Source: a virus
Length of the DNA: 47,976 bases
IMG/VR virus record: IMGVR_UViG_3300006071_000020
Span: 1-47,976 of that record
Reading direction: 5' to 3' (one strand)
Shown: positions 46 through 46,070 of the stretch, piece by piece
Layout of the letters: every line of letters begins with the position of its first letter
Position numbering within the stretch: position 1 is the stretch's first letter
The notes under the pieces: generated by a model
The model's database searches: none
The model's input: the letters and a program-made list of their open reading frames with translations, nothing else
Told to the model about the DNA's origin: nothing
Program-made: the position numbers and the translations under genes

Positions 46-1929
46 TTAATATGCGAAATAGAATGTATCGAGCGAGTTGCGAACACCAGCAGTTGACGAC
101 GCTGGGCTAATTGACCCACCTCCGCCACCACCGCCATTGTTCACGACAGTGCTACTCATAATATTCCCTTGTTGCTTTTGATCCTTCTCAGCTTCCTTCA
201 TTTCTTTCTTTTCGGAAGCTGCTTTGGTCTGAGCAACGAGATCGTTTGACTGTTTTGATACAGGTGGCTTTGCTTGCTGTGCAGGTTGCTTTGGCTGTTC
301 AGTAACTTTCTTTTCAGGAGTGGCTTGCTTATCATCTCCGCCACCGAATAGCTTATATGCTCCGTAGCCAATGCCGCCGACAACTGCCGCAGCGCCAAGA
401 CCAGCAAGGATTTCAGGAGCAGCAGCCAAGGCAGAAGCTCCCATACCTATTCCCTCTGCGGCTCCAGCTAGCCCTGCAACTCCCTCTGCAGCCCCAGCCA
501 GACCTGCGGCACCTTCAGCTAGCCCTGCAGCTCCCTCTGCAGCCCCAGCCAGACCTGCGGCACCTTCAGCTGCGCCAGCTGCACCCTCGGCAGCGCCAAC
601 TGCTTCACCAGCCGCACCTTCAGCTGCAGCTGGGTTTGGAGTTTCGATAGGCTTACCCTTCTTTGAGAATTTTTCTTTCAGCTTATCGAAGAGTTTGGAT
701 TTACCCTTTGACTTGTTTTCTTCTGGCTGAGCCTCAGCATCCTCAGGAGTTTCTTCTGGCTCTTCAGCTTCTTTCTTCTTGCCGAATGGGTTTGGAAGAT
801 ATTTGAGCATACGCAGCATTGGCATATCTTCAGCCATTCTACTACCAATTGCTGAACCGAGATCTTGACCGAGATCGCTTTCAGAAAATCTCTTTAGCAG
901 ACCCTTCTTCTTTGGAGCTGCTTCTTCTTGCTTTTCTTCTTCCTGTTCTCTCAGCTCTTCCTCAATTTCCTTTTTGGATAGAACCTTGCCGTCTTTGCGG
1001 TAGGAGAAATCTTTTTCTGAAGCAGGAGCGATGCCCTTCTTCTTCAGCTTCTCAATTTCTTCAGGAGTTAGCTCGCTGAGTTTCTTATCAGCAGTGAAGC
1101 CTTGTTTTTCCTTTTCTTTTTTGGCATCTTCTTTCTTCTGCTCTTCTTCTACTTTTTCAGCATCTTTTTTCTTAGCCTCATCATCTTCAGCTTTATCTTC
1201 TTGTTTTTTCTTTTCGGTCTCGTCTTTTTCTTTCGCTGGCTTTTCTGCCTTGGTTCCCAGCAAGAAGTTTAGAATTGACTTCAGCGTTTCATCAATTGAA
1301 GTAAACAGACCCATTGAGCTTGACGATTCTTTGCCAACACCAGTCGCGTCATCTTTTTCAGTTTTTGGTTCTGACCATCTCTTAAGATAAGAAGGCGATT
1401 GTTTGTCAATTTGATTCTTGAATGCGTCAGAAAACGAAGAGAAGAAAGTTGGCTGCTCACCATTCTTCTTTTTCTTTCCGTTGGAAGTTATCTCGGAAAT
1501 TGGTCTTGCTGGCTCAGGAACAGCTTGTTTTGCAGGCTTGGAAGGCTCTGGCTTTTCCTTTGCATTCTTAACTTTTTCTTCTTCAGCAGTTTCTGGAGAA
1601 GGAAGGGCAGATTCCCTTTCGTTTTCTCCTTCAGTGTTACGAATTTCTTCATCTTCTCGCTGCTCGTCTTCATCAGTGTCTCTTTGAGCTTGTGTTGGCT
1701 CTTGATTCTTTTCAGTTTGGTCTCTGCCTTCAGAGGTAGTTGTCTTAGTGCCAACGAATGCAGTTTTTTCTGCGCCTTGATCTTGGTCGGCCATTTTCTC
1801 GAAAATACCATCGAGCATGATGGAAGTGACATTGCTGGCTTCCTTTTTGCCAGACATCCACTTTTGTTTCTTTTCGTCGTAGGTGTATGTTTCACCACCG
1901 ATATTGACTGGCTCTCTTTTGATACCCAC
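46..1929 (-). CDS. Lys/Glu-rich virion protein in tape-measure position
   Basis: This 627-aa protein directly follows the gp26-family gene and its frameshift extension, where tailed phages usually encode the tail tape measure. T4 gp29 is 590 aa, a similar length. Residues 1-100 are a short basic and acidic segment. Residues 100-420 are dominated by long charged K/E/D runs, probably coiled coil or disordered. Residues about 430-500 are an Ala/Gly/Glu tandem repeat built on AAEGAAGLAG units. They are followed by a hydrophobic stretch rich in Ala, Gly, Ile and Val that could span a membrane or form a helical hairpin. The C-terminus is a polyglycine linker and an aromatic tail ending DTFYFAY. Tape-measure function is inferred from position, length and composition, not from homology I can recognise. 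A baseplate-hub-associated structural protein is the main alternative. Confidence 0.6.
   Translation of the reverse strand: MGIKREPVNIGGETYTYDEKKQKWMSGKKEASNVTSIMLDGIFEKMADQDQGAEKTAFVGTKTTTSEGRDQTEKNQEPTQAQRDTDEDEQREDEEIRNTEGENERESALPSPETAEEEKVKNAKEKPEPSKPAKQAVPEPARPISEITSNGKKKKNGEQPTFFSSFSDAFKNQIDKQSPSYLKRWSEPKTEKDDATGVGKESSSSMGLFTSIDETLKSILNFLLGTKAEKPAKEKDETEKKKQEDKAEDDEAKKKDAEKVEEEQKKEDAKKEKEKQGFTADKKLSELTPEEIEKLKKKGIAPASEKDFSYRKDGKVLSKKEIEEELREQEEEKQEEAAPKKKGLLKRFSESDLGQDLGSAIGSRMAEDMPMLRMLKYLPNPFGKKKEAEEPEETPEDAEAQPEENKSKGKSKLFDKLKEKFSKKGKPIETPNPAAAEGAAGEAVGAAEGAAGAAEGAAGLAGAAEGAAGLAEGAAGLAGAAEGVAGLAGAAEGIGMGASALAAAPEILAGLGAAAVVGGIGYGAYKLFGGGDDKQATPEKKVTEQPKQPAQQAKPPVSKQSNDLVAQTKAASEKKEMKEAEKDQKQQGNIMSSTVVNNGGGGGGGSISPASSTAGVRNSLDTFYFAY
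466..567 (-). repeat. In-frame 51-bp tandem repeat (17-aa unit, two copies)
   Basis: Two adjacent 51-nt units (466-516 and 517-567) differ at a single base. They encode a 17-residue Ala/Gly/Glu unit inside the 46-1929 protein. Degenerate AEGAAG/LAGAAEG copies extend the array on both sides. In-frame length change by slippage would preserve the reading frame. Confidence 0.85.
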
Positions 1930-1938
1930 TGCTTTTCC

Positions 1939-2109
1939 TTAGTTCTTGGCTAATTCATCCTGTATCATTTTCTGTAATAGTCCAACGTAGATGTCTCTTT
2001 CAAACGGGAACATCGACTCTATTTCATTAATTGAATATTTATGGTGCTGAGCCAAATTGAATATCAGATAATAGTAATTCAAAAGGCTAGTATGACTCAG
2101 CCCTATTGA
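1939..2109 (-). CDS. -1 frameshift extension of the gp26-family gene (GT-like)
   Basis: In the -1 frame relative to the 2103-2813 gene, an open stretch encodes 56 residues after the slippery codons. It begins SIGLSHTSLLNYYYLI and ends with MIQDELAKN and a TAA at 1939-1941. The frame is open upstream only to a TAG near 2143-2145. It contains no ATG or GTG before the conserved-looking region, so independent initiation is unlikely; the first ATG would give only 24 residues. Slippage at T TTT TTT would fuse it to residue 235 of the gp26-like protein, giving about 291 aa. The arrangement matches the short and long tail-assembly chaperones (lambda G and GT), which load onto the tape measure, and a tape-measure candidate is the next gene. 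Expression as a fusion is inferred from the sequence. Confidence 0.75.
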   Translation of the reverse strand, partial: SIGLSHTSLLNYYYLIFNLAQHHKYSINEIESMFPFERDIYVGLLQKMIQDELAKN

Positions 2110-2130
2110 AAAAAATCGCGATAACCCTCC
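2083..2130 (-). promoter_or_regulatory. Programmed -1 ribosomal frameshift signal
   Basis: Reading the minus strand, GGAGGG (2130-2125) lies 9 nt before seven T residues (2115-2109). These are phased as T TTT TTT relative to the zero frame (GAT TTT TTT CAA TAG). Four nucleotides later, AGGGCT (2104-2099) can pair with AGCCTT (2088-2083), with one G-U pair, around a 10-nt loop. An internal Shine-Dalgarno, a heptamer and a downstream stem is the three-part layout known from E. coli dnaX. The zero-frame stop TAG is one sense codon beyond the slip site. Confidence 0.8.
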
Positions 2131-2813
2131 AGCTTGATAAGTCTATTGTTGCCCTTCTCGTTTACGTACTTAATGTCGTATGTGAGTTTTGGCATCTTGT
2201 CAAGGAAATCGTTAACGATTTCTTCATATTGCTTCGAATTCAGATTATTTATGAATTCAACCTTTTCCTCCTGAGAGAAGTCAGCTCCAATATAAGTTTC
2301 TTCACCATCAACAATAACGTCAATACAAGCCGCAACCATCTCGATAGCTGAGTCAACATTTGTTACATTGAGCTTGTTGATAGTTAATAGAGTTTCAAGA
2401 GTAGGAAAGTTTAGAGAAATAGCAATCTTATCGCTGATCTGGAATGACTTCTTTTGTTCAGGATTAAAAGCAGGAACGATGGTGTCCAAATCGACATCAA
2501 AATCGCGAACAATGCCATCCTCTTTGTCTCTATAACGCAGATTCGAAACGTTATTGACCGATCGTGCTCTCAGCTGAAGGAAGAAATACTCAACATCAAA
2601 CAACGGAAGGGTGCTTACGTTAATATCCGAAATGCAGCAATTCTGAAGAACCTGACCGAGTGCGTTAATAACTTCTCGTTCTTCTCCACTTTCTTCAGCG
2701 ATAAGGAAGATCTTTTCTTCTCTCACTGTAAACTGTCTGAACCTGACAGGATTCGCCACGGAAAGCAGTTTAATTTCAAATGTTGGCATATCCAACACTG
2801 GTAACTTAGCCAT
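2103..2813 (-). CDS. 26: gp26-family baseplate hub / tail-assembly protein
   Basis: This 236-aa protein resembles the T4 gp26 family (T4_baseplate). It shows the family's PVRFRQFTVREEKIFLIA opening, central VRDFDVDLD and an ISLNFPTLETLL region, and is close to the length of its marine phage homologues. In T4, gp26 is genetically a baseplate-hub assembly factor. The ATG start is at 2811-2813, after a 17-nt gap from the tube-fold gene. Its last residues DFFQ are encoded by the slippery heptamer and the following codon, so two products are likely: this short form and a -1 frameshifted long form. That pattern argues that the family acts as a tail-assembly chaperone rather than as a hub component. 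The family call is firm; the chaperone role is inference. Confidence 0.82.
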   Translation of the reverse strand: MAKLPVLDMPTFEIKLLSVANPVRFRQFTVREEKIFLIAEESGEEREVINALGQVLQNCCISDINVSTLPLFDVEYFFLQLRARSVNNVSNLRYRDKEDGIVRDFDVDLDTIVPAFNPEQKKSFQISDKIAISLNFPTLETLLTINKLNVTNVDSAIEMVAACIDVIVDGEETYIGADFSQEEKVEFINNLNSKQYEEIVNDFLDKMPKLTYDIKYVNEKGNNRLIKLEGYRDFFQ

Positions 2814-4118: not shown

Positions 4119-4146
4119 GGTAGTCGCGGATGGCGGTCCCACTACC
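4119..4146 (+). promoter_or_regulatory. Two-stem hairpin leader of HEG 1
   Basis: Outer arms GGTAGT (4119-4124) and ACTACC (4141-4146) pair perfectly. A CGC follows the left arm and a single C precedes the right arm as an asymmetric internal loop. Inner arms GGA and TCC close a six-base loop. The same layout with different bases occurs before the other three endonuclease genes. Confidence 0.75.
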
Positions 4147-4171
4147 ACTAATACTAACTGGAGTATCAGCT

Positions 4172-4720
4172 ATGATATATTTATATATTAAACAACACCA
4201 AAAAACTGGTCTGAAATATTTCGGAAAAACCGTAAAAGCCAATCCATTCAAATATAATGGTTCAGGCAGTTATTGGTATAAACATCTAAAAGAACATGGA
4301 AAACACATTAGAACCATAGAAATATGGGGGTTCGATGACCAACAGTTGTGCACACAATTTGCTTTAAAATTTTCTAAAGACAATAATATAGTAGAATCTA
4401 AAGAATGGGCGAATTTAGTCCCTGAAGATGGTATAAGTGGAGGCAGCATCGGTAGCCGTAAAGGAAGAAAATTATCAGAACAAACAAAAGCAAAAATGTC
4501 TAAAACTAGAAAAGGATACAAATATGGTCCTGAGTTTGCAGAAAGATTTAGACAAAGATTATTAGGTGTTCCTAAAACTGAAGAACAAAAACGCAAAATG
4601 CGCTTGGCAAAATTAGGCAAACCTCAATCCGAAGAACACAAAATGAAACGATCGGAAGCTATGAAACGAGCACACGCTATTAAAAAGTTATCCCTAAATC
4701 TTTCTCAGTTACGATCTTAA
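4172..4720 (+). CDS. GIY-YIG-like homing endonuclease with NUMOD3 motifs (HEG 1)
   Basis: The start is taken as the ATG at 4172, which has a GGAG 8 nt upstream and aligns with the starts of the sister genes. The upstream in-frame ATG at 4130 lies inside the leader hairpin. The 182-aa protein opens MIYLYIKQH and has GLKYFGKT, a variant GIY-YIG pair in which the first motif reads YLY. Next come WYKHLKEHG, IEIWGFDDQ and EWANLVPE, the expected catalytic-core spacing. The C-terminal half contains several basic NUMOD3-type DNA-binding repeats of the form SEQTKAKMSKTRKG. The gene is A/T-rich compared with its neighbours. It interrupts the minus-strand operon between gp4 and the 200-aa gene. Its last 41 bases overlap the 3' end of gp4 in antisense. 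The position equivalent to Arg in WLRH/WNRH of its sisters is Lys here. Confidence 0.8.
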   Translation: MIYLYIKQHQKTGLKYFGKTVKANPFKYNGSGSYWYKHLKEHGKHIRTIEIWGFDDQQLCTQFALKFSKDNNIVESKEWANLVPEDGISGGSIGSRKGRKLSEQTKAKMSKTRKGYKYGPEFAERFRQRLLGVPKTEEQKRKMRLAKLGKPQSEEHKMKRSEAMKRAHAIKKLSLNLSQLRS

Positions 4721-44888: not shown

Positions 44889-45364
44889 TGAAAATCAAAT
44901 CGCTTTTTTATAAACCATTTTTGTATTCTAGATGCACAGTAGCTGATGGTGAGACTGTCACATTCAACGAAAACGAAATAAAAGACAGTATGGGCGTAGC
45001 TCATGTAAAGGGCGAATTGACATGTATTGACTGCGATGTTCCTGAGTATATCGGCACAATTCATTCCGTTGCAATTAATGGTAATGAGATTTTACAAACT
45101 ACTAAAATGAAGGGTCAGACTTGGGTTGCAAACGGCGAAACCGAATGGGTCTGTTTTCAAACAACTCCAGATATTAGAGCAACAAGAAATCTTGTAACAC
45201 AAACTGTTTCTGGAGAATACACACTACCATCAGGCACAGGATTTCTTGTATTATCTGGATCAGTTACGGCTGATGGAATGACCGCAAACCAAGATGATTA
45301 TTTCAGAGCAAGAAACGCAGATCTTCTTGTATCTGGCAATGGAGTTATTATCCTTGTTACTTAA
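44888..45364 (+). CDS. Beta-rich, possibly cupin-like protein, 158 aa
   Basis: The start ATG lies in the stop of the 48-aa gene. The C-terminal half has a strand series GEYTLPSGTGFLVLSGSVTA, NQDDYFRARNADLLVSGNGVIILV that resembles a cupin or related jelly roll, though metal ligands are not obvious. The N-terminal half is also beta-rich with CTVADGETVTFNENEI. Its end overlaps the desaturase gene, so the two are probably expressed together. Function is unknown. Confidence 0.5.
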   Translation: MKIKSLFYKPFLYSRCTVADGETVTFNENEIKDSMGVAHVKGELTCIDCDVPEYIGTIHSVAINGNEILQTTKMKGQTWVANGETEWVCFQTTPDIRATRNLVTQTVSGEYTLPSGTGFLVLSGSVTADGMTANQDDYFRARNADLLVSGNGVIILVT

Positions 45365-46070
45365 AAATTTTGACAAAAGATACATTCTAACGTCTTTTCA
45401 GCTTTTTGGCACTCCTATTGCTATTTGGGCAGCTCTTACGTACGGAACTGCCCAGTTATTGGCTTTTTCTTTATTGATGTTCTTTCTATACAAATGCGTC
45501 GGCGTTGTTGTCACGTATCATAGAATATTGTGTCACAGAGCTGGAAAAATGAACCCTGTGATTCAATTTATTTGCACGGCTTTTGGATTTTACGGTAGCT
45601 TTCTTTCGCCAATGACTTGGTCGGGCGTACACATCAATCACCACAAATATGTCGACACAGATAAAGATCCTCATAGTCCAACACATATTGGGTGGAAAGG
45701 TTGGTTTAGTGTTTTTTGGGTAGACAGCGTTGATCTTAAAGTTATGGCAAGAATCAAAAGAGACAAAATCAGCAACTTCTTTCATGAATATTATTATTCA
45801 TTGTTGTTGATTCCTGTGGTCGGCTTAATTTTATTCCCTATCCCGTTTCTGTTTGGCTGGCTTATTCCTGCGAATCTAAGTCTTTGGTCACATCATTTAA
45901 GCGTCTATAATCACGACGAAACTGGCGCTAAAGAAATGGGTAAACTATTTGGGTTCTTGACAATGGGCGAGCACCACCACAAGTGGCATCATGATCATCC
46001 TAACGATACTTCGGGCGAAGGATGGATCCACTATATCACCAAAGCACTAACATATGCAGATTCAAGATAA
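45339..46070 (+). CDS. Fatty acid (acyl-CoA) desaturase-like membrane enzyme
   Basis: This protein of about 243 aa has the three histidine boxes of stearoyl-CoA-type desaturases: HRILCH (His61, His66), HINHH (98-102) and HHKWHH (213-218). Hydrophobic segments lie at about residues 18-60, 75-90 and 165-190. The gene would introduce double bonds in host membrane lipid, using oxygen and a di-iron centre. The start is uncertain: ATG at 45339 or 45294, both inside the preceding gene and neither with a strong Shine-Dalgarno. Its 3' end overlaps the 2OG oxygenase start by 17 nt. Substrate identity is not shown. Confidence 0.85.
   Translation: MELLSLLLKNFDKRYILTSFQLFGTPIAIWAALTYGTAQLLAFSLLMFFLYKCVGVVVTYHRILCHRAGKMNPVIQFICTAFGFYGSFLSPMTWSGVHINHHKYVDTDKDPHSPTHIGWKGWFSVFWVDSVDLKVMARIKRDKISNFFHEYYYSLLLIPVVGLILFPIPFLFGWLIPANLSLWSHHLSVYNHDETGAKEMGKLFGFLTMGEHHHKWHHDHPNDTSGEGWIHYITKALTYADSR

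Follow-up and report, generated by a model that had tools for sequence, protein, structure and literature searches.

The gp26-family gene of this uncultured virus very likely gives rise to two tail-assembly chaperones, a short form read in the 0 frame and a long form that would be produced by −1 ribosomal frameshifting at the 3′ end of the gene. The window (the whole stretch of DNA analyzed, 47,976 nt) very probably contains a real frameshift signal; ribosomal frameshifting is a much likelier explanation than separate initiation of the extension, slippage during transcription or an indel from assembly. The whole arrangement lies on the minus strand and comprises the following features:

2103–2813, minus strand: gp26-family gene, 236 aa, probable short tail-assembly chaperone (TAC-N); matches PF12322 (E 7.4e-50) and phrog_150 (E 1.2e-54)
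2125–2130, minus strand: GGAGGG, a putative Shine–Dalgarno (SD)-like stimulator 9 nt upstream of the heptamer; from the sequence, with SD-like motifs and codon bias in relatives
2109–2115, minus strand: slippery heptamer T TTT TTT in the tandem-slip phase; from the sequence, conserved in relatives
2103–2105, minus strand: TAG, the 0-frame stop codon; from the sequence
2083–2104, minus strand: weak local hairpin, a possible stimulator; z −1.86, with family-wide structure enrichment at the same offset
1939–2112, minus strand: predicted −1 frame extension with a gp51-family domain, from the second slipped Phe codon to the stop; phrog_634, alignment with relatives and JSE-type gp51
46–1929, minus strand: next gene, 627 aa, Glu/Lys/Ala-rich, candidate tape-measure protein; inferred from position

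Slippery site and −1 frame in the window

The window gp26 protein matches positions 1–218 of the 219 in the PF12322 (T4_baseplate) profile with a score of 170 bits, against a curated cut-off of 24.5. On the minus strand its gene ends CTG GAG GGT TAT CGC GAT TTT TTT CAA TAG. A sequence-only reading of this DNA had pointed to GGAGGG followed after nine nucleotides by T TTT TTT in the right phase, and both elements are present as described (2130–2125 and 2115–2109). The 48-kb window contains this pattern of hexamer, spacer and heptamer a single time, and none of 100 shuffled sequences contains it. Runs of seven T are much scarcer than expected in the window, with three observed on both strands compared with 16.8 expected.

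After the heptamer the −1 frame continues for 56 residues to a TAA at 1941–1939. The earlier reading had stated that no ATG or GTG precedes the conserved-looking part of this frame, and that is correct: between the preceding stop and a TTG at 2082–2080 (codon index 9 after the heptamer) the frame contains no ATG, GTG or TTG, making this TTG the first possible start, and the first ATG is at codon index 32. The extension matches phrog_634 ("baseplate hub assembly catalyst", gp51) with an E value of 5.3e-20 over profile positions 57–108 of 121, and a gp51-family C-terminal domain is thereby encoded directly after gp26. It also matches the C-terminal columns 241–279 of the 282 in phrog_150, which indicates that some members of that family carry both parts as one protein.

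Conservation across relatives

Relatives were drawn from viral contigs and isolate phages by taking the best 80 loci per scan, so the sample is not random. The 174 loci were reduced to 136 non-redundant genes at 90% gp26 identity, the window included; these are phylogenetically related and do not represent independent samples. Very diverse gp26 and extension alignments were too divergent for the collection scans, and closer subsets worked.

A lack of conservation of the heptamer or the −1 frame had been named beforehand as an outcome that would refute the frameshift; both are kept. An in-phase T TTT TT[T/C] lies 0–3 codons before the gp26 stop in 134 of the 136 non-redundant genes in the sampled set, 105 times as T TTT TTC and 29 times as T TTT TTT. 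Each of these 134 genes has a −1 frame that stays open across the heptamer and past it, usually for ∼60 codons; the +1 frame after the gp26 stop is short in nearly all relatives. Within gp26 gene bodies the in-phase motif is found at only 6 sites in 30,548 codon positions, and just 6 of 153 Phe-Phe pairs there are written in this way. Conservation reaches down to about 23–29% gp26 identity and covers Kyanoviridae, Schizotequatrovirus, Aeh1, Stenotrophomonas Menderavirus, Agrobacterium OLIVR5 and Methylophilales Melnitz-1; S-CREM2 and S-N03, which were read separately, also have the heptamer and the −1 frame. The closest cultured matches to the window lineage are less than 60% identical. The conserved in-phase heptamer and overlapping open −1 frame support the earlier suggestion that this locus has the layout of the G/GT tail chaperones.

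The two exceptions are from an Ackermannviridae phage (L013) and Vibrio phage K469 (L015), where the −1 frame is open and the canonical heptamer is absent. In these Ackermannviridae-like gp26 genes (L013:3712–3901 and L015:3622–3833), ATT TTC and CTT TTT stand in its place, and the TTC or TTT codon may allow a weaker slip by a single tRNA.

Stimulatory elements

In 119 of the 134 sampled genes, an SD-like motif ends 8–10 nt before the heptamer. The Glu codon at the SD position is GAG in 60% of cases compared with 27% elsewhere (p 7e-14), and the Gly codon is GGA or GGG in 64% compared with 37% elsewhere (p 5e-10), where both p values ignore the relatedness of the sequences. This bias in the choice of codons indicates that the SD-like motif is more than a by-product of a conserved Leu-Glu-Gly. 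RNA folding is also enriched just after the heptamer across the family, with a mean z of −1.36 and 49% of genes below −1.5, compared with mean z values of −0.5 to +0.1 for segments upstream of it, and the downstream stems vary from group to group.

The 6-bp hairpin proposed for the window held up only in part. A local fold is present, in which 2104–2098 pairs with 2089–2083 through seven base pairs, two of them G-U (z −1.86). It is the weakest part of the signal, because a longer segment of the window prefers a different pairing and because the hairpin is not consistently kept in close relatives when the folds are compared by eye.

Alternative explanations

The extension might instead be a small gene in its own right (gp51), with translation beginning at a separate start codon or resuming past the gp26 stop by reinitiation, and it is annotated as a separate gene in S-SM1, S-N03, OLIVR5 and EniLVp02. 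In 65 of the 134 sampled genes the −1 ORF does have an ATG among its first 20 codons, but 39 of 131 genes have no ATG, GTG or TTG before codon 18 of the extension. In the window, the TTG at 2082 comes after a near-invariant Leu at codon 8, and no SD is visible near it in the window sequence. Independent initiation would also leave the heptamer unexplained, and JSE gp51 has the extension only in one piece with a gp26 domain. We regard a separate gene as very unlikely.

Slippage could also occur during transcription, with RNA polymerase slipping on the T run and some of the mRNAs thereby carrying the fusion as a single frame. Seven or more consecutive T are present at the site in the window and 28 other genes, but six T are few for transcriptional slippage, and in 105 of the 134 genes there are six T and then a C, with the exact tandem-slip phase still kept. 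That most relatives have only six T, in precisely this phase, argues against transcriptional slippage, as do the SD spacing bias and the downstream structure, which are features of ribosomal frameshifting; we consider the idea very unlikely. A break in frame at a run of seven T, in a record from an uncultured virus, might also be an indel introduced into the homopolymer during sequencing or assembly, or the pattern might have arisen by chance. However, the same arrangement is found at about 170 other loci, mostly with six T and including the isolates S-SM1, Aeh1, OLIVR5 and S-CREM2, and a 79-kb contig has the identical sequence across the junction. An assembly indel is excluded by this recurrence in isolate genomes, and the probability of artifact or coincidence is negligible.

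Relationship to T4-type gp51

Phage JSE has one gene for gp26 and another for gp51, and the two are transcribed divergently. JSE gp51 has a PF12322 domain at residues 2–198 (E 2e-43) and an overlapping phrog_634 match at residues 143–251, all in one frame. The predicted window fusion aligns with JSE gp51 over almost its full length (E 6e-6). When a profile is made solely of the fusions predicted for frameshift-type phages, its match to JSE gp51 spans the junction, and in the alignment of extensions a JSE-type gp51 is in register from the Phe pair onward. JSE gp51 is therefore colinear with the predicted fusion, such that the hypothetical frameshift product of one group is an ordinary gene product in another. 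The T4-type gp51, as a natural in-frame protein made of gp26 and the extension, supports the chaperone reading. The proposal that gp26 homologues are tail-assembly chaperones thus gains support from the identity of the −1 product as a gp51 domain and from the in-frame fusion in JSE, with the role itself being one that the sequences suggest.

Frameshift-encoded groups include the cyanophages, Schizotequatrovirus, Aeh1, Menderavirus, OLIVR5 and the window lineage. We suggest only tentatively that, as the T4 superfamily evolved, the encoding of the long chaperone has switched between frameshifting and a separate fused gene of the JSE/T4 kind, and that the Ackermannviridae-like phages with half a heptamer may be intermediates. 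Because the junction is identical in both encodings, the direction and number of such switches might be reconstructable.

Structural and virion data

An AlphaFold2 model of gp26 has a mean pLDDT of 95, and its matches in BFVD are other phage proteins annotated as hub proteins or chaperones. A PDB fold search with this model gave no significant match; the HK97 chaperone gp13 (2ob9) was recovered weakly (probability 0.35, E 1.7). The gp26 profile found nothing among PDB sequences, and an NCBIfam search gave no matches.

T4 gp26 and gp51 have been tabulated as hub assembly chaperones, with gp51 described as absent from the particle, although part of the earlier genetic work on T4 assigned gp26 to the hub (PMC3004832). 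In the virion proteome of S-CREM2, the gp26 and gp51 homologues (ORF206 and ORF207) are absent, as are ORF202 and ORF205, and ORFs 203, 204 and 208–213 are present (PMC10665884).

The gene following the extension

The 627-aa gene (1929–46, minus strand) begins 12 nt past the −1 stop. In 96 of 109 relatives, a large ORF has its start no more than about 20 nt from that stop. The sequence-only reading suggested that this next gene encodes the tape measure, which is plausible mainly by position. Its matches to PHROG are weak and probably compositional. The C-termini of several next-gene proteins are Asn-rich, as is that of JSE gp29, although this is an impressionistic comparison. By the tape-measure rule, a helix extends 0.15 nm per residue, and a 627-aa helix would then span about 94 nm, a T4-like length. 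The position fits the earlier claim, but the size of the protein does not simply follow that of the tail: S-CREM2 has a 418-nm tail and 1565 aa at the next-gene position, compared with 138 nm and 933 aa for S-N03, so the relation is not proportional.

Directly after gp26/gp51 in S-CREM2 (L182, OR473000), the large virion proteins ORF208 and ORF209 are annotated as endolysins. They have 1565 and 1456 aa, compared with 933 and 722 aa for their S-N03 counterparts.

Proposed mechanism

The signals in the sequence, their conservation and the homology between the predicted fusion and gp51 are observed; from these we infer the slip, its efficiency and the role of the chaperones in the window phage, and the model is as follows. 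The short chaperone, TAC-N, would be the product of the gp26-family gene. A minority of ribosomes reaching T TTT TTT, a codon short of the stop, would slip by −1 with both tRNA-Phe re-pairing, promoted by the upstream GGAGGG and perhaps also by downstream RNA structure. Slipped ribosomes would read 56 more codons, and the resulting long form (TAC-NC), of 291 residues, would end in the gp51 domain. On the pattern of lambda gpG/gpGT, the tape-measure protein would be bound by many copies of the short form and few of the long one, which would bring in the tail-tube subunits, and neither form would be retained in the virion. In the group of JSE (and T4), the long form comes from a separate gene 51 built from the same two parts.

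Comparison with known systems

The E. coli dnaX −1 signal combines an SD-like element, an A6G heptamer and downstream structure. The window signal likewise has an SD-like element and a homopolymeric heptamer, with a possible downstream structure, but differs in having a T run rather than A6G, a weak and variable stem, and a different biological role. The likeness to lambda gpG/gpGT and other G/GT pairs of dsDNA phages is one of layout (a short ORF, a 3′ slippery site, an overlapping −1 ORF and a large gene next; PMC5009743), whereas the poly-T heptamer and upstream SD set the window apart from the lambda type. The chaperone locus of Vandenendeviridae/Andersonviridae, exemplified by phage Adele, also has a −1 shift at a T run near the end of TAC-N and an uninterrupted −1 frame (PMC12846349). 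The Adele motif is shorter, GTTTTT, and the comparison with the window is by layout.

The nearest known system is that of the T4-like phages, whose gp26 (TAC-N) and gp51 (TAC-NC) share their gene family with the window locus, as a short form and a form with the gp51 extension, and a poly-T frameshift site occurs in some groups. JSE and T4 encode the long form as a separate gene, whereas the window lineage, which is uncultured and divergent, would require the frameshift. Vladimirov and colleagues reportedly identified genes 26 and 51 as the T4 pair in 2022, and frameshifting is said to be kept in several T4-like groups. Their paper (Vladimirov, Gautam & Davidson 2022, Virology 566:9–15) is cited in passages of PMC10885494 and PMC12846349 for gp26/gp51 as T4-like tail-assembly chaperones, some of which use frameshifting. 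PMC10885494 adds that in some T4-like phages frameshifting is replaced by two genes, one short and one long and fused, and PMC12846349, citing Vladimirov et al., describes T4-like phages whose TAC-N genes have poly-T slippery sites. The principle of a frameshifted chaperone in T4-like phages has thus been in print since 2022; the window locus is a further, well-supported case, and the present counts provide independent support for the proposal.

In the records examined, public annotation gives a structural baseplate-hub subunit together with a separate small protein, or omits the extension. The evidence says that these two annotated genes correspond to a single chaperone with a predicted short form and a predicted long form made by frameshifting. 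Annotating them jointly would aid proteomics, since fusion peptides are absent from the annotations examined, and would help to find tape-measure genes in cyanophages, a group of widespread marine phages.

Other genes

In the near-identical 79-kb contig, the 627-aa gene is followed by a small hydrophobic, holin-like ORF of 81 aa (L001:6780–7025, plus strand), which runs off the start of the window and has no match in Pfam. Elsewhere in the window, a homing-endonuclease-like ORF (4130–4720, plus strand) with a NUMOD3 motif and an N-terminus resembling GIY-YIG lies between the genes for the DNA-end protector (gp2) and head closure (gp4), on the strand opposite to both. A fatty-acid desaturase gene (45294–46070, plus strand; PF00487) is a possible auxiliary metabolic gene.
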